From Citrobacter sp. FP75 (GTDB taxonomy: Bacteria; Pseudomonadota; Gammaproteobacteria; Enterobacterales; Enterobacteriaceae), in contig NZ_JAFDOE010000007.1 of the NCBI RefSeq assembly GCF_018342065.1, positions 127,350 to 191,349 on the forward strand: a DNA stretch of 64,000 nt. The letters are read 5' to 3'. Below, piece after piece: positions 40,106 to 53,599 of this stretch (positions are counted from its first letter, which is position 1; every line of letters starts with the position of its first letter). Under the pieces are notes generated by a model. It saw only the letters and a program-made list of their open reading frames with translations. It had not been told where the DNA came from and searched no databases. The translations under genes were made by a program, and so were the position numbers.

Positions 40106-40203
40106 TTATCCGCCCGTCACTACGATACATCGTAGCCTGTGACCTGTTCACATGGCTGCGTCTACAATTCGCGCTATTTCAGCATTTAACAGGTCTGTTA
40201 TTG

Positions 40204-42351
40204 ATGAAAAAAATCACCAGTGTATGCCCGTACTGTGGGGCCGGGTGCAAGCTCAAGCTTGTTGTTGAAAATAACAAAATCATCCGCGCCGAAGCCGCAG
40301 AGGGTGTCACAAACCAAAATCAGTTATGCCTGAAAGGCTACTATGGCTGGGATTTTCTTAACGACACGCGGCTTCTGACGCCCCGCCTGACTCGCCCACT
40401 GATCCGTTATGAAAAAGGGGGAAAATTCACACCCGTTAGTTGGGATGAGGCCATTCGTTACACCGCAAAACGCTTATCCGACATCAAGAACACCTTTGGT
40501 CCTCGGGCCATCATGACGACAGGCTCTTCCCGTGGGACAGGGAATGAAACCAACTACGTGATGCAAAAATTCGCGCGGGGTGTACTCAACACCAACAATG
40601 TCGATTGTTGTGCCCGCGTATGTCACGGCCCTTCCGTTGCCGGCTTACAGGAAACCCTGGGCAATGGCGCAATGAGCAACTCCATTAGCGACATTGAAAA
40701 CTCCAAATGCCTGCTTATCTTTGGTTATAACTGCGCAGACTCCCATCCGATTGTTGCCCGTCGTGTCATCAAGGCTCGCCAGAACGGCGCTAAAATCATT
40801 GTCTGCGATCCCCGCCGCATTGAAACAGCGCGCATTGCTGACCAGCATCTGCAGTTAAAAAACGGCTGTAACATGGCGCTGGTCAACGCCTTTGGTTACG
40901 TGCTAATTGAAGAGCAACTCTACGACCGTGAATATGTGCAAAAGCATGTCGAAGGTCTGGAAACCTATTGGGAAACCGTGAAGGACTATGCGCCTGAAGC
41001 CGTTGAACACCTTACCGGCGTTCCCGCTCAGCAGGTGCGCCAGGCAATGCGCACCTTTGCCGCCGCACCTTCAGCAACGGTAATGTGGGGAATGGGCGTG
41101 ACGCAGTTTGGACAAGCTGTTGACGTGGTCCGCGGATTGTCGAGCCTGGCCCTACTGACCGGGAATCTGGGGCGACCTAACGTCGGCGTGGGCCCAGTAC
41201 GCGGGCAGAATAACGTTCAAGGTGCATGCGACATGGGCGTTCTCCCCAATCAGTTTCCGGGCTATCAGGATGTTACCGACTTTGCGGTTCGGGAGAAATT
41301 TGCCAAAGCCTGGGGGATTGACGTCAACCTGATGGATGACAAGGTCGGCACACGCATCACCGAAGTTCCCCACCTGGCGATCGAAGGCAAAGTTAAGGCC
41401 TACTACATCATGGGGGAGGATCCGCTGCAGACCGAGGCCGATTTGGGTCTGGTTCGCGAGGGCTTCAACGCGCTCGATTTTATCGTGGTGCAGGATATTT
41501 TCATGACCAAAACCGCGGAAATGGCCGACGTTATTCTGCCTGCGACCTCATGGGGTGAGCACGGTGGCGTCTTTACCTGTGCCGATCGCGGTTTCCAGCG
41601 TTTTGAGAAAGCGATCGACCCCACCGGGGATGTGAAGCGCGACTGGGAGATTATCAGCCTGCTGGCAACCGAAATGGGCTATCCGATGCAGTATCAAAAC
41701 AACCAGCAAATCTGGGATGAAATGCGCGAATTGTGCCCACTGTTCTACGGCGTAACCTACGAAAAAATGGGCGATATGGGCCATATTCAGTGGCCTTGTC
41801 CGGATCTCGATCACCCAGGCACACCGTATCTTTATGCCCACAGCCAGTTTGATACTGCCAACGGCAAAGGCAAACTGTTTGCCGCGCAATGGCGCGCGCC
41901 TGCGGAAATACCTGATGAAGACTATCCGATGGTGCTCTGCACCGTGCGTGAAGTGGGGCATTACTCCTGTCGTTCCATGACCGGCAACTGTGCGGCGCTG
42001 CAGGCGCTGGCAGATGAACCGGGCTATGTGCAGATTAATACTCAGGATGCAGCCAAACTGGGGATCCGACATCGCGATCTGGTATGGGTAAGTTCACGTC
42101 GCGGGAAAGTGATCAGTCGGGCAGATGTCTCCGAACGCATCAATAGCGGAACGGTATACATGACGTATCAGTGGTGGATTGGCGCCTGTAACGAACTCAC
42201 TCAGGATAACCTCGATCCGATCTCGAAAACACCGGAAACCAAGTATTGCGCGGTGATTATCGAACACATTACCGATCAAGGTTGGGCGGAATATTATGCC
42301 GCACAATCGTACAGCGAGATGAAATCACGTTTATGTGAGGCCATTGCGTAA
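40204..42351 (+). CDS. Cysteine-type formate dehydrogenase H paralogue
   Basis: This 715-residue molybdopterin oxidoreductase aligns along its length with E. coli FdhF. The [4Fe-4S] cysteines are C8, C11, C15 and C42, followed by K44. The Mo-ligand position 140 in CCARVCHGPS is Cys (TGT at 40621-40623) where E. coli FdhF has selenocysteine (TGA); the next His is kept. It should oxidise formate to CO2, probably slower than the Sec enzyme and independent of selenium. E. coli fdhF is elsewhere on the chromosome, so this is likely a second copy. ATG 40204 is used; the TTG just before it is not needed. Confidence 0.92.
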   Translation: MKKITSVCPYCGAGCKLKLVVENNKIIRAEAAEGVTNQNQLCLKGYYGWDFLNDTRLLTPRLTRPLIRYEKGGKFTPVSWDEAIRYTAKRLSDIKNTFGPRAIMTTGSSRGTGNETNYVMQKFARGVLNTNNVDCCARVCHGPSVAGLQETLGNGAMSNSISDIENSKCLLIFGYNCADSHPIVARRVIKARQNGAKIIVCDPRRIETARIADQHLQLKNGCNMALVNAFGYVLIEEQLYDREYVQKHVEGLETYWETVKDYAPEAVEHLTGVPAQQVRQAMRTFAAAPSATVMWGMGVTQFGQAVDVVRGLSSLALLTGNLGRPNVGVGPVRGQNNVQGACDMGVLPNQFPGYQDVTDFAVREKFAKAWGIDVNLMDDKVGTRITEVPHLAIEGKVKAYYIMGEDPLQTEADLGLVREGFNALDFIVVQDIFMTKTAEMADVILPATSWGEHGGVFTCADRGFQRFEKAIDPTGDVKRDWEIISLLATEMGYPMQYQNNQQIWDEMRELCPLFYGVTYEKMGDMGHIQWPCPDLDHPGTPYLYAHSQFDTANGKGKLFAAQWRAPAEIPDEDYPMVLCTVREVGHYSCRSMTGNCAALQALADEPGYVQINTQDAAKLGIRHRDLVWVSSRRGKVISRADVSERINSGTVYMTYQWWIGACNELTQDNLDPISKTPETKYCAVIIEHITDQGWAEYYAAQSYSEMKSRLCEAIA

Positions 42352-45588: not shown

Positions 45589-46239
45589 TTAGTGATGCAG
45601 CATCTCGTCGATGACCTCTTCCGCTTTTAGCTGGTACGGATAATAGGTTGGCCAGTTGTCCATCTCTGCAAGCAGAGCCGCCTGCGACGTATTTCCCATA
45701 AAGATGTGATAGTGGCTCGATTTGCGTGGCGCAATAATATGATCGCTAAACTGAACGTATTTCGGCGCGTTGCTGTTTGCCTCTTTGCACTCAAACAGAT
45801 AACGCACACCCTTTTTACCTGACGTGTAAGTCAATATTTTGTACCCGGCATAGTCATATTTGCACGACGCAACCTGATTACCGGTATGAAACTCCATCAC
45901 ACCGTTCTCGATGCCGATAGTGTCCACCTTGGTGGCATAGCCTTTGCGGTAATAGGCTTTAATCTCCTCCGCTGTTTTACTTTTATCCTTCTCGGCTTTT
46001 TTCTTAAATACCGGATCCAGCTCGCCACTGAGCAGATAAGGGTAGACAGACTGCCACATTCCATCCCAGTCGGTCAGCTCCCGGTCCTTCACATTGCTAT
46101 TATCAAAAACGCCCTCTGACGCTTTTTGCTCTATTTCGGTCATCGGCGCGCCGTGGGAATGATGCCCATGAGCCAACGCCTGACTACTGATGAACAGCAT
46201 CCCCAGAACAGCTGCCAGTTTTTCCAAACGAATAGCCAA
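45589..46239 (-). CDS. zinT: Periplasmic zinc/cadmium-binding protein ZinT
   Basis: ZinT binds zinc in the periplasm and works with the ZnuABC importer under zinc starvation. A signal peptide (ends SSQALA) is followed at once by the His-rich segment HGHHSHG. The second metal-binding group lies in SSHYHIFMG. The 216-residue length equals that of E. coli ZinT. A Zur palindrome lies 31 bases upstream. In K-12, zinT is elsewhere; here it lies beside the NikR-linked transporter. Confidence 0.95.
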
Positions 46240-46269
46240 AATTCCACCCTCAATATGTTTGCGAGTGAA

Positions 46270-46286
46270 ATGTTATAATATAACAT
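46270..46286 (-). promoter_or_regulatory. Zur operator of zinT
   Basis: ATGTTATA-A-TATAACAT is a perfect 17-base palindrome and matches the enterobacterial Zur box. It lies 31-47 bases before the zinT start, covering the likely promoter, so zinc should repress zinT. Confidence 0.9.
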
Positions 46287-46356
46287 TACGAATTAATCAA
46301 CGCGGTTATGCAACATTCAACCGCGTTGATAAGCCATTAACACAGAGAAAGGACGA

Positions 46357-46947
46357 TTATGGACAAGGCAGCATTCGCGAGCATATCTGATCAAGCAATG
46401 CCTGCTGATGGCTGATGATGAGTATACCCAACGGGCGACGCTGGCATTCTTCAAGCAGCAGAGCCCATACGTCTCGTTGAATAGAAGGGTCAAGCTGGGC
46501 GGTAATTTCATCGGCAATGAGAAAACGCGTGCGTGGGTCAAGCGCGCGAAGCAGTGCAATACGCGCCAGTTCGCCACCGGAAAGCTGCCCGGGGCGGCGG
46601 GTTAACCATTCAGGGTTGATATGCAAACGGGCGAGCGTTGTTGCGTCCGGCTGCCAGGCATCCCGCACCGCATCACCTGTAGTCCGCCAGGGGTTGAACG
46701 TCAGTTCCGGATGTTGCGGCACCAGCTGTACCGGGCAATATTGCCCGACCGGTAACGGTTTATCATCGACTAAAATTTCACCGTATGTTGGCTTTTGCCA
46801 TCCGGCAAGCACGCGTCCCAGCGTGGTTTTCCCGGTTCCGCTGGGTGCGCAAATCCCCATGCGTTCCCCGATAGCCAGCGAGAACGTCAGATTTTGCCAC
46901 AGCATCTTGCCGCCCTGGCGAATAGTAACATCACGACAGCACAGCAT
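46357..46947 (-). CDS. NikE/DppF-type ABC transporter ATP-binding protein, short
   Basis: This is the second ATPase of the Nik/Dpp-type transporter. Walker A is seen as APSGTGKTTLG, the ABC signature as LSGGELARIAL, Walker B as RFLIADE, and the switch His in LIISHQ. At 196 residues it is about 65-70 shorter than NikE and stops soon after the switch-His region. The C-terminal substrate-specificity part common to the Opp/Dpp/Nik ATPases is missing. It overlaps the first ATPase gene by 17 bases. All motifs for ATP hydrolysis remain, so it may still work. Confidence 0.85.
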   Translation of the reverse strand: MLCCRDVTIRQGGKMLWQNLTFSLAIGERMGICAPSGTGKTTLGRVLAGWQKPTYGEILVDDKPLPVGQYCPVQLVPQHPELTFNPWRTTGDAVRDAWQPDATTLARLHINPEWLTRRPGQLSGGELARIALLRALDPRTRFLIADEITAQLDPSIQRDVWALLLEECQRRPLGILIISHQQALLDQICSRMLPCP

Positions 46948-47725
46948 TCAGCTCTCCAAAAAGTTGATTTCTTTCAGGTAGCGCCCGCCATTGCCGCTGC
47001 AGCTGTTCGCTTATTTCCCCACGCAGCAACTGTTCCCGACTCACGTTATCCGATACCCGTCCCTGATGCAGAGCGACAATGCGGTCCGCATGACGCGCAG
47101 CCAGCGTAAGATCGTGCGTCACCCACAGCACGCCGCGTCCCTGCTCGCAAAGCCCGCGCAAATGCCCAAGCAGCTGATTAGCCAATGGCGCATCGAGCCA
47201 GGCAGTAATTTCATCGGCGAGGATATACCGCGCCTGACTGAGCGACGCATGGCACGCCAGAATACGTTTAGCCATCCCACCGGAAAGCTGGCGCGGGAAG
47301 GCATCTAATACGCTGGCATCCAGTTGACTACGCTGGAGCAGTTGTGTCATTTCCCCCGCATCCCAGGGCTTACCGGAGAGCTGACTCGCTCTTTTTAAAT
47401 GTTTTTCAATGCTCAGCAATGGATTCAGCGCCTGTACACCTTGCGGTACATAACTAAAGGTATTGCCGCGACATTCACGGATCTCATTGCGATCCAGCGT
47501 TTTGCCATCGAGAGTTATCGCGCCCTTAACGCGCAGATTCTCAGGTAGCAGATCGAGCAGGCACTGCAACAGCAGGCTCTTACCTTCTCCGCTGCCGCCG
47601 ACTAACGCCACCATCTGACCGGGTGCAATATCAAAAGAAATATCCTGCAGCAGCGATGACCATTTTCTCGCGCCGTACCAGCGATAGCGCGCCACGTCCA
47701 GCGAGACCTGCTTTAGACTCAACAT
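46931..47725 (-). CDS. NikD/DppD-type ABC transporter ATP-binding protein
   Basis: This is the first ATPase of the importer, 264 residues. Walker A is GGSGEGKS, the signature is RQLSGGMAKRI, Walker B is YILADE and the switch His is in VTHDL. The start overlaps the end of the second permease gene by 7 bases. Together with the short ATPase it would form the motor of the five-gene system. Confidence 0.9.
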   Translation of the reverse strand: MLSLKQVSLDVARYRWYGARKWSSLLQDISFDIAPGQMVALVGGSGEGKSLLLQCLLDLLPENLRVKGAITLDGKTLDRNEIRECRGNTFSYVPQGVQALNPLLSIEKHLKRASQLSGKPWDAGEMTQLLQRSQLDASVLDAFPRQLSGGMAKRILACHASLSQARYILADEITAWLDAPLANQLLGHLRGLCEQGRGVLWVTHDLTLAARHADRIVALHQGRVSDNVSREQLLRGEISEQLQRQWRALPERNQLFGELNAVLS

Positions 47726-48531
47726 GCTTCACCTCTCAACCACAAACGATGTACCGCCCTGGCAAACTGGTCAAATAACATCACCAGGCTGAACAGCATT
47801 AATCCTGGAAACAGCACCAGCCACCAGTTGCCGTGACTGATAAATCGCAGCGCATCCGCCAGTAGCAGCCCCAGCGACGGTTCATGCGGCGCCAGCCCGA
47901 ATCCAAGAAAACTCAACGCCGCGCTATGTAACACCGCGTGCGGAAACATCAACAACGTGCCGGTTAACCATTGCGGCAAAAGCGCAGGTAAATAGTGATG
48001 GCGCCAGCAGTAAAAATGACCGTGCCCCAGCCGTCGGGTCAGCATCAGGTAGTCACTGTGTGCGACACGTTCTGCCTCGGCGCGCAGGATCAAGGCCAGG
48101 CGCGGCCAGTGGGTCAGCGCAACCGCCAGCACGACCCCACTTTTACCGCCGCCAAGGGTAAAACAGATCAGAATAAGCAGCAGCAGATGCGGCATAGAGA
48201 GCATGGCGTCAGTGACCAGACGCATCAGGACATCCATACGCGGATGTAACCGCGAAACCGCCGCCATCAATAAGGCAATCAATCCGCTACACAATGCCGC
48301 GCCGATACCAATCTGCAGGCTGGTTAGCGCTCCCTGAAAACAACGCACCCATAAATCACGTCCGAGGTTATCCGTACCAAACCAGTGCAGCGCATCCGGT
48401 GGCAGATGGCGGGCCAGCAGGTCGACGTTCAGCGCATTATCCAGCGTGGCGGAACCATACAGGGCGATGAAGAGTAGCCCCCCCGCAGACAGCAGCAGGC
48501 GAATTAACGTTGGGGTTGGGTTATAGAGCAT
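47719..48531 (-). CDS. NikC/DppC-type ABC transporter permease
   Basis: This 270-residue membrane protein is the second permease of the importer. It has about five to six helices and the DppC-type entry motif HWFGTDNLGRDLWVR, plus an EAA-like loop region near RAEAERVAHSDYL. It overlaps the upstream permease gene by 11 bases. Substrate is inferred from the NikR-type operator, not from this sequence. Confidence 0.9.
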   Translation of the reverse strand: MLYNPTPTLIRLLLSAGGLLFIALYGSATLDNALNVDLLARHLPPDALHWFGTDNLGRDLWVRCFQGALTSLQIGIGAALCSGLIALLMAAVSRLHPRMDVLMRLVTDAMLSMPHLLLLILICFTLGGGKSGVVLAVALTHWPRLALILRAEAERVAHSDYLMLTRRLGHGHFYCWRHHYLPALLPQWLTGTLLMFPHAVLHSAALSFLGFGLAPHEPSLGLLLADALRFISHGNWWLVLFPGLMLFSLVMLFDQFARAVHRLWLRGEAC

Positions 48532-49495
48532 CAGGACGCTCCACCGCTCGATTCAGAACATGGACTAACCAGGAAGAGAGCGAGTTGCCCATAAACACCA
48601 GCACGGTACTGAACAGGACGATCCCCATCAGTAGCGGCACATCGCCACGCAATCCGGCATCGATGGTGGCCTGCCCCAGTCCGGGATACGCAAAGACTTT
48701 TTCAGCCAGCAATGCGCCACCGAACAGTTCGCCAAGCGAAGCGAACTGCAGGCACAGCGCCGGAGTGATGGCGTGGCGCAGGACCTGATGGCGCAGCAGC
48801 GACCACCCCCTGTCCCCCTGGGAACGGGCAAAACGGACGAATTCGCTTTTCATCACGCTGGCGATGCTTTCTCGGGTATGGAGCGTAATTTGCCCTAATC
48901 CCAATAAACTGAGGGCACATACCGGAAGAACCAGATGGCGCAGACGCTCAGTGAAGGTTGCCATATCGCCACTATTACCCGGTTCCCACGCACAGCAGAC
49001 GGGGAGCAACGGCCAGCGTACCGCAAACACGGCCAGCAGCAGCATACCAATCCAGAAGGTCGGCAATGATGAGAGCAGATAGCTGAGGCGGCAGATCATT
49101 TTATCCGGCCAGCGGTTCAGAAAGCGCCCGGCGACAAACCCCATTGCTGTGCCCAACAAACCCGACAATAACCATGCGCCACTCAGCAGCGCGAAAGAGG
49201 TAGCAAAACGCTCTTTGATCACGCTGGCGACCGGCGCATTAAACAGCATCGAATACCCGAGATCGCCCTGTAAGACGCGTGCAAACCAGTGCCCGAAACG
49301 TTCCCACAGCGGCTGATCCAACCCCCAGCGTGCGGCGATACGCGCATACTGTTCTGGCGGAACATGCAGAAGATCGTTACCAATATAGGCACGAATCGGA
49401 TCGACAGGCGAAAAGCTGAGCAGGATGAAGGTGCCAGCAGCAACCAGCACCAACAACACTACCAGCCGTACAAAATGTCCCACAACAGACTTCAT
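48521..49495 (-). CDS. NikB/DppB-type ABC transporter permease
   Basis: This is the first permease, about 324 residues with six helices; the DppB-type extracytoplasmic region DPIRAYIG and the loop GDLGYSMLFN are visible. I place the start at ATG 49495 because the stop of the binding-protein gene overlaps it as TGATG, which is a strong coupling signal. A longer start at 49516 is open but would overlap more. The family handles peptides, nickel and metal complexes. Confidence 0.88.
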   Translation of the reverse strand: MKSVVGHFVRLVVLLVLVAAGTFILLSFSPVDPIRAYIGNDLLHVPPEQYARIAARWGLDQPLWERFGHWFARVLQGDLGYSMLFNAPVASVIKERFATSFALLSGAWLLSGLLGTAMGFVAGRFLNRWPDKMICRLSYLLSSLPTFWIGMLLLAVFAVRWPLLPVCCAWEPGNSGDMATFTERLRHLVLPVCALSLLGLGQITLHTRESIASVMKSEFVRFARSQGDRGWSLLRHQVLRHAITPALCLQFASLGELFGGALLAEKVFAYPGLGQATIDAGLRGDVPLLMGIVLFSTVLVFMGNSLSSWLVHVLNRAVERPDAL

Positions 49496-51081
49496 CAACG
49501 GCAGGTCCAGGTCCATTCATCAAGATTGTTGAGCAGAGACCAACTGCCGTGAATTTCCGGCGCGCCTTTACCCAGGTTAATGCACGGATTGGCCAGATAG
49601 GTGTGCTGTATATTCAGTAACCATGCCCACGCAGCATCGCCCTGGACACCTGCGCCCTGCTTACCATCCCATTCCACCTGTTGCCAGAAAGGCACCGCTT
49701 TTTGCCAGTCCGCAGCATCAACGGCTTGTTTCAGATGCTGTTCAACCACAGGATTGCTGTAATAGCCGGGGTTGTAATACTCAACGCCCGCAGCCTGCCC
49801 GCTGTAGTGATGGAAAAGCTCCATCGGATCTAAACTTCCCCAGCCAAACAGCGTGGGGTTCGCATGCATATGCCGCTCAACGGTTTCCCAGCTTCCGGAT
49901 TGCAGTGATACCGCAATGCCTACAGGCTCAAGCATCGCACGCACAGCTTCGGCTAAATCCCGACGCGTACTGTCGCCGCTCGCATACCATAACGTCAGGC
50001 GGGCTTCTTTGCCGTCTTTTACACGCACGCCATCCGGGCCGACTTTCCAGCCAGCCTGTTCCAGAATGGTACGTGCTTTTTCAGCGTCGCCATCTTTAAA
50101 TGCAACCGATGGCCCCTGCCACGGCAACCCCTGAACCGCGCTGTACGCCGGGATAGCGTGACCTTCCATAACCTGCTCAGCAAGCTGCTTACGGTCGATG
50201 GCATAGTTGATGGCTCGTCTGATGGCGACATCGGCCGTAATATCGTTACCTACCGGATAACCGTTAGCATCTTTCTTGCCTGCCGGCACCATCGGGAAGA
50301 CAATCCCTCGGTTCTCTACGCTGTTGCGAACCCACAGCTTCAAATTGCTTTGCTGAGGAGCAACGGCCATTGACGGCGCAATACGTACCAGACCCAGTTG
50401 CCCACTGCGTGCGGCTGCATACGCGTTATCTTCGTCCAGGAAGACAAATACCAGCCGGTTAAAATCATTTTTCTTACCGGCATACCAGGGGTTAGCTTCT
50501 ACGATCAACTGCTGACCCGGTTGAAAACTCACCAACCGATAAGGACCAGCGCCAATCGGATTTCTGGCAAATGTTTTTTCATCGTATTGTTTTGCCGGAA
50601 CAATGCCTAACGAGCCCAGCACATTCACAAACGTACTCTGCGGACTGCGTAGCGTTATTTCTACCGTACGATTGTCTTTCTGGCGGGCATGGATGAAATT
50701 CCCCATGTCGATTTTCCCACCACTTGTCGCGGCTTTGTTGAAGGTGAACACCACATCTTCAGCCGTGAGCGGGGATCCATCGGAGAATTTAAGATCGGGT
50801 TTTAACGTTAACGTCCAGGTTTTACCATCTGCATTGGTCGCCACCTTTTCCGTCAACAGGTTTCCCCAACTCATATCCGCATTTTGCTTTAATAAAGGCG
50901 CATGCAGTAGCAGATAGCTGCCGTGACTCCAGCCCAGCATCGGGTCAAACCCTTCCGTGGGTTCTGGCCCAATAGCCAGTTTTAACGTCTGCCCTTGTGC
51001 CGCAGGTTGTGCAGCCAAAAGGGAGGAAGAAAATGCCAGTGTCAATGCACACGTCAGCCGTGCCAGCTTGCCTTTAATCAT
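49495..51081 (-). CDS. Periplasmic substrate-binding protein, Nik/Dpp family (SBP_bac_5)
   Basis: This 528-residue protein leads the five-gene importer. A signal peptide (ends SSSLLAAQPAA) is followed by a family 5 binding fold with conserved LTAEDVVFTFN and NPIGAGPYRLVSF. Its length is close to NikA (524 residues). I cannot tell from sequence whether it binds nickel, a nickel chelate or a peptide. The exact NikR-type operator 120 bases upstream is the main reason to propose nickel. The operon reads binding protein, two permeases, two ATPases. Confidence 0.9.
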   Translation of the reverse strand: MIKGKLARLTCALTLAFSSSLLAAQPAAQGQTLKLAIGPEPTEGFDPMLGWSHGSYLLLHAPLLKQNADMSWGNLLTEKVATNADGKTWTLTLKPDLKFSDGSPLTAEDVVFTFNKAATSGGKIDMGNFIHARQKDNRTVEITLRSPQSTFVNVLGSLGIVPAKQYDEKTFARNPIGAGPYRLVSFQPGQQLIVEANPWYAGKKNDFNRLVFVFLDEDNAYAAARSGQLGLVRIAPSMAVAPQQSNLKLWVRNSVENRGIVFPMVPAGKKDANGYPVGNDITADVAIRRAINYAIDRKQLAEQVMEGHAIPAYSAVQGLPWQGPSVAFKDGDAEKARTILEQAGWKVGPDGVRVKDGKEARLTLWYASGDSTRRDLAEAVRAMLEPVGIAVSLQSGSWETVERHMHANPTLFGWGSLDPMELFHHYSGQAAGVEYYNPGYYSNPVVEQHLKQAVDAADWQKAVPFWQQVEWDGKQGAGVQGDAAWAWLLNIQHTYLANPCINLGKGAPEIHGSWSLLNNLDEWTWTCR

Positions 51082-51200
51082 TATGTTATCCAGATTTGCA
51101 TTATTTTATGCCGTTCAACGATTGATTGCCGTTAAACGGTCTCCGGGGAAAGTGATTATGGCGGACAGAAATGGTGAAAAAAATGATGCGGCTCAGAAAA

Positions 51201-51228
51201 GTATGATGATTTCATAAAATTATCATAC
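51201..51228 (-). promoter_or_regulatory. NikR-type operator
   Basis: GTATGA, exactly 16 bases, then TCATAC: this is the full E. coli NikR operator pattern. The symmetry extends to 11 bases per arm (AAAAGTATGAT and ATCATACTTTT, 51197-51232). It lies 120 bases before the binding-protein gene and about 280 bases before the divergent receptor gene. Nickel-loaded NikR would be expected to repress the importer. Confidence 0.85.
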
Positions 51229-51252
51229 TTTTTTCTGATACTCCGTTATGAG

Positions 51253-51268
51253 TACGATTTGAATCGTA
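51253..51268. promoter_or_regulatory. 16-base palindrome of unknown role
   Basis: TACGATT-TG-AATCGTA is perfectly symmetric and lies 25 bases beside the NikR operator. It matches no operator I know. It could be bound by a second regulator of the locus. Confidence 0.4.
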
Positions 51269-51382
51269 GAGAATTGCTTAAACCGTAGCCATTTGTTCAA
51301 TGACATATTCATCCCAGCCTAACAATTGCCAATGCAGACTATTGGTCTTCCTGCCATTTCCTTATCTGAAATTTATGACAAT

Positions 51383-51413
51383 TTATGTATATTTATTAAA
51401 GAAATACACATAA
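51383..51413. promoter_or_regulatory. Imperfect 12-base inverted repeat before the receptor gene
   Basis: TTATGTATATTT and AAATACACATAA pair with one mismatch around a 7-base spacer. A further TTATGT at 51423 continues the pattern. Role unknown; possible operator overlapping the receptor promoter. Confidence 0.35.
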
Positions 51414-51438
51414 AGTGACAAGTTATGTAAATTTGTAA

Positions 51439-51459
51439 TGATAATTATTTGTATTATCA
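51439..51459 (+). promoter_or_regulatory. Fur box upstream of the TonB-dependent receptor
   Basis: The 21-base stretch begins TGATAAT and ends ATTATCA and agrees with the overlapping-heptamer Fur consensus at about 16 of 21 positions. The symmetry extends to AATGATAAT and ATTATCATT. It lies 53 bases before the receptor ATG, so iron-loaded Fur should repress that gene. Confidence 0.75.
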
Positions 51460-51511
51460 TTTCCATCAATTATCTTACTGCCTTTGAATTTTTAACAAAG
51501 GAAGTTTGACT

Positions 51512-53599
51512 ATGCGTTTAAAACCTGTTGCCTCTGTCGTTCTGTCCTGTCTTGGATTCAGCTGTACTTATGCTTTCGCCGACGACGTGATGGTCGTGAC
51601 CGCTTCTGGTTACGAAAAAAAGATCACCAACGCCGCCGCCAGCGTTTCTGTTATTTCTCAACAAGAATTACAAACCAATAAATATAATGACCTGGGTGAA
51701 GCCCTGCGCTCTGTAGAAGGGGTGGATGTTGAAAGCAGCACCGGTAAAACCGGCGGTCTGGAGGTCAGCATTCGCGGCATGCCCGCCAGCTATACCCTGA
51801 TTCTGATAGACGGTATTCGTCAAAATGGCAGCAGTGACGTGACGCCAAACGGCTTCTCTGCAATGAACACCAGCTTTATGCCTCCTCTGGCAGCCATCGA
51901 TCATATTGAAGTGATTCGCGGCCCCATGTCGACGCTATACGGTTCTGATGCTATCGGCGGTGTCGTTAACATCATAACCAAAAGAAGTACGGACAAATGG
52001 AGCACGTCCATCAATACCGGTGTTAACCTACAAGAAAGCAATAAATGGGGTAACAGCACGGTTGCCAATTTTTGGTCAAGCGGTCCTTTAATCGCCGGCG
52101 TGCTGGACATGCAGGTGCGCGGAAGCACCACACAGCGACAAGGTTCCAGCGTCACCTCCCTGAGCGATACCACGTCGACGCGCGTGCCTTATCCAACGGA
52201 ATCAGAAAACTACAACATCGGTACCCGTCTGGACTGGAAAACCGGTGAAAGTAATACGCTCTGGCTGGATCTCGACTCCGCAAGACAGCGCTACGATAAT
52301 GGCGACGGGCAACTTGGTAACCTGACCGGGGGATACGATAAAACCCTGCGCTATGAGCGCAACAAGGTCACGCTGGGTCACGATACCGCATTAACATTCG
52401 GCACCTGGAAATCATCCGTGGGCTGGAATGAAACCGAGAACAAAGGCCGCCAGTTGGTCTCCTCTGCCCTTACGCCTGAAAATGCAGGCCGGGCCGGTGA
52501 CGCTCGTGAACTGAAAAATACCAACGTCATTCTGGACTCGATACTGCTGACGCCATTGGGCGATTCACATCTGCTTACCCTCGGCGGAGAATACTGGGAT
52601 GCCCGCATGAAGGACGGCGTGGTGCTGGCCAATACCGGCGAAACATTCCACCAGAAAACATGGGCGACCTACGCGGAAGATGAATGGCACATTCTCGATT
52701 CGCTGACATTAACCGCAGGTACACGCTACGAGCATAATGATGTCTTTGGCGGACACCTCAGCCCACGAGCCTACATGGTCTGGGACGTCTCCGAAGAGTG
52801 GACCCTGAAAGGCGGCGTTACAACCGGATACAAAGCCCCGTCACTTAGCCAGTTACACAACGGCATCAGCGGCGTTACCGCCCAGGGAACCGTCAATACG
52901 GTCGGCAACCCTGATCTTAAGCCAGAAGAAAGCACCAGCTATGAAACCGGGCTGTACTATGAGAACGATGCAGGGCTGAACGCCAACGTTACCGGCTTTT
53001 ATACCGAATACAAAAATAAAATTGTCTCGTACTCTATCGATGATAATACCAACAGCTATACCAACAGCGGCAAGGCAAGAACGGACGGTGTTGAATTCGC
53101 CAGTACCTTCCCTCTTTGGTCCGACGTACTGAGTTTGTCGCTCAACTACACCTACACGCAGAGCAAGCAAAAGGATGGTGAGAACAAAGGCGCACCGTTG
53201 AGCTACACCCCCAAACATATGGCTAACGCCCGTTTGAACTGGCAGGCAACCGAAGATATGAACGCCTGGCTGAGCGCACGCTATCGTGGTAAAGCCCCAC
53301 GCTTTACCGAAAATTATGACAATCTCAGTGCAGTACAAAAGGCGGTGTATGATGATAAAGGGGCAAATTTAAAAGCCTGGACCGTTCTGGATATGGGAAT
53401 GTCCTATAAATTGACCAAAGAACTGACGTTGAATACAGCCGTGAATAACGTCCTGGATAAAGACTTTAGCGACGTCACCCTGTATCAGGTAGGCCGCAGC
53501 AGCACCTACGCGGGTGACTATTACCAGACAGCTCAATCTACGACCGGATACGTTAACCCGGGTCGCAACTACTGGGTTTCGTTAAACTACCAGTTCTAA
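51512..53599 (+). CDS. TonB-dependent outer-membrane receptor, CirA/IrgA-like
   Basis: This 695-residue receptor has a signal peptide (ends TYAFA), a TonB box right after it (DDVMVVTAS), a plug domain (RGMPASYTLILIDG, then VIRGPMSTLYGSDAIGGVVN) and a 22-strand barrel ending NYQF. It resembles catecholate-siderophore receptors of the CirA/IrgA group. ATG 51512 has AAAGGAAG upstream. A Fur-like box points to iron control, yet it is divergent from a NikR-linked importer, so it could bring in a metal-chelate used by that system. The ligand cannot be read from the sequence. Confidence 0.92.
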   Translation: MRLKPVASVVLSCLGFSCTYAFADDVMVVTASGYEKKITNAAASVSVISQQELQTNKYNDLGEALRSVEGVDVESSTGKTGGLEVSIRGMPASYTLILIDGIRQNGSSDVTPNGFSAMNTSFMPPLAAIDHIEVIRGPMSTLYGSDAIGGVVNIITKRSTDKWSTSINTGVNLQESNKWGNSTVANFWSSGPLIAGVLDMQVRGSTTQRQGSSVTSLSDTTSTRVPYPTESENYNIGTRLDWKTGESNTLWLDLDSARQRYDNGDGQLGNLTGGYDKTLRYERNKVTLGHDTALTFGTWKSSVGWNETENKGRQLVSSALTPENAGRAGDARELKNTNVILDSILLTPLGDSHLLTLGGEYWDARMKDGVVLANTGETFHQKTWATYAEDEWHILDSLTLTAGTRYEHNDVFGGHLSPRAYMVWDVSEEWTLKGGVTTGYKAPSLSQLHNGISGVTAQGTVNTVGNPDLKPEESTSYETGLYYENDAGLNANVTGFYTEYKNKIVSYSIDDNTNSYTNSGKARTDGVEFASTFPLWSDVLSLSLNYTYTQSKQKDGENKGAPLSYTPKHMANARLNWQATEDMNAWLSARYRGKAPRFTENYDNLSAVQKAVYDDKGANLKAWTVLDMGMSYKLTKELTLNTAVNNVLDKDFSDVTLYQVGRSSTYAGDYYQTAQSTTGYVNPGRNYWVSLNYQF

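Follow-up and report, generated by a model that had tools for sequence, protein, structure and literature searches.

A candidate NikR-repressed Ynt-type nickel importer in freundii-complex Citrobacter, with NikR retained after apparent loss of nikABCDE

The locus considered here, a five-gene importer lying beside a divergent TonB-dependent receptor gene in Citrobacter sp. FP75, can be compared with several described systems, namely nikABCDE-nikR of Escherichia coli, YntABCDE of Yersinia and Proteus, STM1255-1259 of Salmonella Typhimurium, FecA3/FrpB4 of Helicobacter and Iha of pathogenic E. coli. The NikR site of E. coli is given in the literature as GTATGA-N16-TCATAC. Reviews present the Yersinia Ynt system as a distant nickel importer, and one review names Ynt as the principal importer of nickel in Proteus mirabilis. 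Regarding S. Typhimurium, a 2022 iModulon paper reports a NikR iModulon made up of the five ATP-binding cassette (ABC) genes STM1255-1259, while a review calls these genes NikABCDE and attributes to Rodionov 2006 the statement that STM1255 transports nickel. Since NikR control of STM1255-1259, which are probably ynt genes, is already in print, a link between NikR and Ynt is not new in kind. Within the open-licence literature searched, neither a Citrobacter NikR-ynt unit or a hand-over of the regulon, nor the co-occurrence of an orphan NikR with Ynt or a change of its operator, was found to have been published.

The stretch analysed (the window) comprises 64,000 nucleotides of contig NZ_JAFDOE010000007.1 of FP75. 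Our reading, to which we give a probability of roughly 0.83, is that freundii-complex Citrobacter carry a Ynt-type nickel importer repressed by NikR, that NikR took over ynt after nikABCDE had been lost, that the Edwardsiella-like ynt genes were probably transferred, and that the adjoining iha gene is a separate matter. What is seen directly in the sequences is the operator, the NikR gene, the absence of NikA, the identity of YntA, the conservation of the site and the co-occurrence of the genes.

All six genes of the preliminary description, five for the importer and one, divergent from them, for the receptor, are present as open reading frames. The importer genes lie on the minus strand in the order A-B-C-D-E, as in YntABCDE, and this order is kept in relatives: yntA (49495-51081; PF00496), encoding a nickel-complex binding protein of 528 residues, is followed by the permease genes yntB (48521-49516) and yntC (47719-48531), both PF00528, and by the ATPase genes yntD (46931-47725) and yntE (46357-46947), both PF00005. 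The products belong to the Nik/Dpp superfamily, yet all of them fall under the NCBIfam equivalog cut-offs for NikA to NikE: the yntA product reaches 122.7 bits with the best NikA model against a cut-off of 393, the yntB product is below every NikB cut-off, and NikD is the best model for the yntD product, which stays under its cut-off. The yntA product matches the structures of the "Extracytoplasmic Nickel-Binding Protein YpYntA" (PDB 4ofl and 4ofo) with an E-value of 1.2e-264, the match to 4ofl covering residues 31-528, and PDB 3ry3 with an E-value of 5.2e-266. The Yersinia YntA structures are thus far ahead of the next solved relative (1e-38), and the importer, sharing with the Yersinia and Proteus systems both the five-gene layout and the YntA sequence, is identified from its sequence as YntABCDE and not as a Nik system. 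By analogy with the YntA family, nickel would be its substrate in FP75. It had been described as a second Nik/Dpp-type importer; this reading was dropped, the genome containing no NikA over the cut-off and ynt being the sole Nik/Ynt-type ABC importer found in it. It is not necessarily the only route for nickel, a NiCoT-family permease and an efflux protein being encoded as well.

In front of yntA, a motif scan of the window finds GTATGATGATTTCATAAAATTATCATAC at 51201-51228 (no strand assigned), which matches the E. coli NikR operator GTATGA-N16-TCATAC without a mismatch. The repeat reaches four bases beyond each end and stays complementary for seven bases inside, so that its arms (51197-51207 and 51222-51232) are 11 bases long, just as had been claimed for it. 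When up to two mismatches are allowed, five operator-like places are found in the window (shuffle mean 1.70), one of them exact, and 95 in the 5.09-Mb genome, where a reversed-pattern control gives 111. The genome-wide scan for the NikR motif that the preliminary description had proposed returns a single exact copy, the one before yntA. With equal base composition about 0.3 exact sites would be expected per genome by chance, so that it is position and conservation, rather than rarity alone, that carry weight. The search of homologous loci, likewise proposed there, finds the operator in front of yntA in all 17 examined genomes of the same genus; none of its 12 specified bases varies across the 15 aligned upstream regions, while spacers and flanks do. 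The same intact operator stands before ynt in two Salmonella subspecies.

An exact GTATGM-N16-KCATAC box occurs at 20 of 60 named ynt loci, the GTATGA form being found in 12 Citrobacter and two Salmonella loci and the GTATGC form in four Edwardsiella loci as well as in Hafnia and Enterobacillus. For 39 of the named ynt-bearing genomes the NikR status could be set beside the box, which is exact in 20 of 28 genomes with NikR and in none of 11 without it. Unlike the Citrobacter copy, the ynt loci examined in Morganella, Providencia, Aeromonas and Klebsiella have no exact box; nikABCDE is present in Klebsiella, with a box of its own. STM1255-1259 resemble the Citrobacter genes in being five ABC-transporter genes assigned in the literature to a NikR regulon, and are probably the counterpart of YntABCDE, an identification made with two other Salmonella subspecies in the comparison. 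Exact copies of the motif can also be found elsewhere in relatives, in several places that seem to have nothing to do with nickel: within a phage-like coding region (L155), in a hairpin-like repeat (L156) and between genes none of which is a nickel gene (L154). Single exact sites can therefore be due to chance.

The FP75 genome encodes one NikR over the family cut-off (219.7 bits against 175.45 in a profile search), so that an operator upstream of the genes and NikR in the same genome, as expected of a NikR regulon, are both found. The NikR link claimed for the importer is borne out by this protein together with the exact, conserved operator and the YntA-type nickel-binding protein. The nikR gene lies 49 bases after an acpT-like gene and has no adjoining nik genes. 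FP75 shares with E. coli the operator sequence GTATGA-N16-TCATAC and the type of NikR, which passes the family cut-off; it differs in having no nikABCDE and in that the importer under the operator is not orthologous and is encoded at a different place. Of the 17 genomes of the same genus, 15 likewise have no NikA above the cut-off. Remnants of NikE directly before nikR can be found in 7 of 12 compared Citrobacter and Salmonella nikR regions, one of them strong (68 residues, 78%, E 4e-32) and six short and low-scoring (E 1e-5 to 0.04), in the expected place; the other five regions, including that of FP75, have none. In ten comparisons with the FP75 gene, the ratio of nonsynonymous to synonymous substitution rates (dN/dS) of nikR is 0.007-0.026, at a synonymous divergence (dS) of 0.44-1.28, and nikR is under purifying selection.

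The association of NikR with Ynt is also seen in a survey of 149 genomes of the family, in which NikR passes the cut-off in 29 genomes, while NikA is found in 29 and YntA in 15. YntA is present in all nine genomes that have NikR over the cut-off and no NikA, and in one of the 20 that have both NikR and NikA; when weaker NikR matches are added, the corresponding counts are 9 of 11 and 1 of 27. Seven of the nine genomes with NikR and no NikA have the exact box. Five survey genomes have YntA without NikR.

With regard to the origin of ynt, a tree of 31 YntA sequences unites those of Citrobacter, Salmonella and Edwardsiella in a clade with support 100/99, and an alternative clade of Citrobacter, Salmonella and Klebsiella is rejected (approximately unbiased test, p 5e-5). 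The simplest reading is that the ynt genes of Citrobacter and Salmonella were probably acquired by transfer. A megablast comparison of the 7.35-kb stretch with an E. coli collection gave no match. The C. freundii record NZ_CP056259.1, labelled as a plasmid, carries ynt and iha together with icd and rluE, and judging by the latter two genes it is probably a piece of the chromosome under a wrong label; an origin from a mobile island or plasmid was rejected on this account. Since the operator and the promoter core can be aligned between Citrobacter/Salmonella and Hafniaceae, the operator is probably ancestral to both groups and would have changed at its sixth base and the mirror base. Residue 7 of NikR, in the DNA-binding strand, is Thr in the E. 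coli type and Ser in Hafniaceae, including Edwardsiella. In Edwardsiella anguillarum, the same motif is found before nikA, ynt, a HoxN/NixA-family permease gene (over cut-off) and a CbiM-containing cluster; with boxes before this permease and the DUF4198/CbiM cluster, the set of NikR-type sites in Edwardsiella is wider than in Citrobacter. The same species has a duplicated gene copy (L149, 2559-3149 and 9105-9692) with a second NikR-type box alongside, perhaps the scar of a duplication.

These observations can be arranged in a more detailed but tentative scenario, which we hold to be a possibility short of an even chance. Ynt would have arrived with the Hafniaceae site GTATGC-N16-GCATAC, the half-sites would since have been retuned to GTATGA, matching the resident E. 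coli-type NikR, and NikR would have been kept by selection for ynt alone once nikABCDE had decayed. At the ynt promoter, in contrast to that of nikA, NikR would bind on the far side of an FNR-like site and perhaps act as an anti-activator instead of masking the start of the promoter. The elements concerned lie between the operator and yntA on the minus strand: a putative -10 hexamer of the ynt promoter, CATAAT, at 51155-51160, and the conserved FNR-like 14-mer CTGAGCCGCATCAT at 51183-51196, whose centre would be near -41.5 if the -10 hexamer is called correctly. In 12 promoters (the L043-L058 counterparts), a 14-mer ending in (A/G)TCAT stands 22 bases before the -10-like hexamer and agrees with an FNR consensus at 5-8 of 10 positions. 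The distance from the CATAAT/TATAA-type hexamer to the operator is 39-41 bases in 10 of these 12 promoters and 50 in the other two. As a hypothesis, the 14-mer may be a class II FNR site, with NikR binding just upstream of it. No RNA element reaches the Rfam gathering thresholds between 44000 and 56000.

The divergent gene on the plus strand (51512-53599, the likely ATG start being at 51512) encodes an iha-type TonB-dependent catecholate siderophore receptor, which scores 1360 bits with NF010012 against a cut-off of 924. Being 72.8% identical over 100% of its length to the products of iha-annotated E. coli plasmid genes, the receptor is identified as Iha, described for pathogenic E. coli as an enterobactin receptor and adhesin; unlike E. 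coli iha, the Citrobacter gene is a chromosomal neighbour of ynt. A Fur-like palindrome lies before it at approximately 51436-51460 (no strand assigned), called from a Fur consensus and from conservation. Its best 19-mer, at 51440-51458, agrees with that consensus at 14 of 19 positions and is the sole place in the window with at least 14, a score that also turned up in 27 of 500 shuffled versions of this AT-rich intergenic region; the Fur-like box claimed at 51439-51459 can be recognised in this stretch. Among the 12 Citrobacter sequences with the receptor, ten have the same 25-base core and the other two each depart from it by a single change. Iha is probably a separate catecholate receptor under Fur.

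The preliminary description had joined receptor and importer in one metal-chelate system, a TonB receptor serving the outer membrane and Ynt the inner one. Such systems exist, for NikR-controlled, TonB-linked nickel uptake is described in Helicobacter for fecA3 and frpB4, with NikR and a TonB-dependent receptor likewise in one organism, and FP75, like 11 of the 12 named Citrobacter loci, keeps ynt and iha as divergent neighbours. The Citrobacter receptor, in contrast to FecA3/FrpB4, is of the enterobactin type, Iha being credited in a review with enterobactin uptake in uropathogenic E. coli, and has a Fur-like site of its own some 210 bases from the operator and no NikR box, the genome holding no further exact one. 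Iha-like receptors adjoin ynt in 11 of the 60 loci, all Citrobacter, and none was found near ynt in the other 49, NikR-boxed ones among them, with Iha as the query, which a very divergent receptor could escape. The operator is kept without a nearby Iha-like receptor in Citrobacter sp. Awk 4, the two Salmonella subspecies, Edwardsiella, Hafnia and Enterobacillus. With iha next to ynt in 11 loci and the NikR box in 20, the shared intergenic region is best seen as a meeting of neighbours; neither co-regulation of the receptor by NikR nor consistent linkage is found, and we judge that iha is not part of the NikR unit. The receptor was accordingly rejected as a component of a nickel system on its Iha identity and its lack of linkage outside Citrobacter, and a joint system is very improbable.

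A somewhat less improbable, though still unlikely, alternative is that the importer carries a peptide or another metal complex, the operator imposing nickel control as a side effect. Peptide carriers can be found among the SBP_bac_5 proteins, the importer proteins lie below all Nik equivalog cut-offs, and zinT with a Zur-like site follows just downstream; yet the nearest solved relatives are the nickel-binding YntA proteins, the presence of YntA tracks NikR kept without NikA, and a review reports that Ynt supplies nickel to urease in P. mirabilis. That the operator might be a functionless palindrome, left over or arisen by chance, for which the expectation of about 0.3 exact sites per genome could be invoked, is the least credible of the alternatives, given its invariance amid differing spacers and flanks, the absence of the box before ynt in every NikR-free genome tested (11 of 11) and the purifying selection on nikR in a genome with no other exact site.

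Several points weigh against the NikR-Ynt reading itself. The exact box is lacking upstream of yntA in 8 of the 28 genomes with both NikR and ynt (Klebsiella, six Pseudomonas and Leminorella) and in G019 and G116, two of the nine survey genomes with NikR and no NikA, so that ynt is not under NikR control everywhere. The Fisher p of 1.0e-6 for the association of YntA with NikR lacking NikA overstates independence, the survey genomes being related and the nine representing about three lineages by our reading, and many survey rows scored just nine candidates per genome. Loss of the nik genes is not fixed in the genus, since G003 and G005, two of the 17 genomes, have nikA. The FNR reading depends on 5-8 matches of ten and on a spacing fixed after the sequences had been viewed, and the NiCoT-family permease may also import nickel. 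As regards G003 and G005, their nikABCDE genes lie away from nikR in differing surroundings, each with its own exact NikR box; a re-acquisition is possible.

Downstream of yntE, the minus-strand gene zinT (45589-46239; NF007639 over cut-off, PF09223) encodes a periplasmic zinc-binding protein. A Zur-like 23-mer between the two genes (46267-46289, no strand assigned) has one mismatch to a Zur consensus, and 0-5 mismatches to it are found in 13 of 14 named Citrobacter and Salmonella loci; zinT appears to form a separate Zur-type unit. The NikR, Fur-like and Zur-like sites place three metal-control sites within about 5 kb. Elsewhere in the window, a plus-strand gene for a formate dehydrogenase alpha subunit (40201-42351; TIGR01591 over cut-off) reads CC in VDCCARVCHG, at the place of the selenocysteine of E. 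coli FdhF, and so is a cysteine form.

Taken as a NikR-repressed Ynt system, the locus would work as follows. The lineage would have lost nikABCDE and kept nikR, and NikR would now govern the non-orthologous YntABCDE, through which nickel is probably taken up as a small-molecule complex. With enough nickel in the cytoplasm, nickel-loaded NikR would occupy the operator and ynt would be off; when nickel is short, ynt would be expressed and the nickel enzymes supplied. FP75 has two matches to the hydrogenase large subunit, one full-length and one partial. If the conserved promoter core has been recognised correctly, the operator lies just upstream of the FNR-like site and a weak promoter, and NikR may keep off either an activator or the RNA polymerase alpha subunit.

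For these genomes, genes annotated generically as "ABC transporter" would thus probably encode a nickel importer, and the presence of Iha beside ynt is no evidence for TonB-dependent nickel uptake. The change between GTATGC and GTATGA half-sites, found alongside the change at residue 7 of NikR, may serve as a natural experiment on DNA recognition by NikR. More generally, NikR in Citrobacter would be a metal sensor that survived the loss of the operon it first served, its retention being due to its control of another importer.

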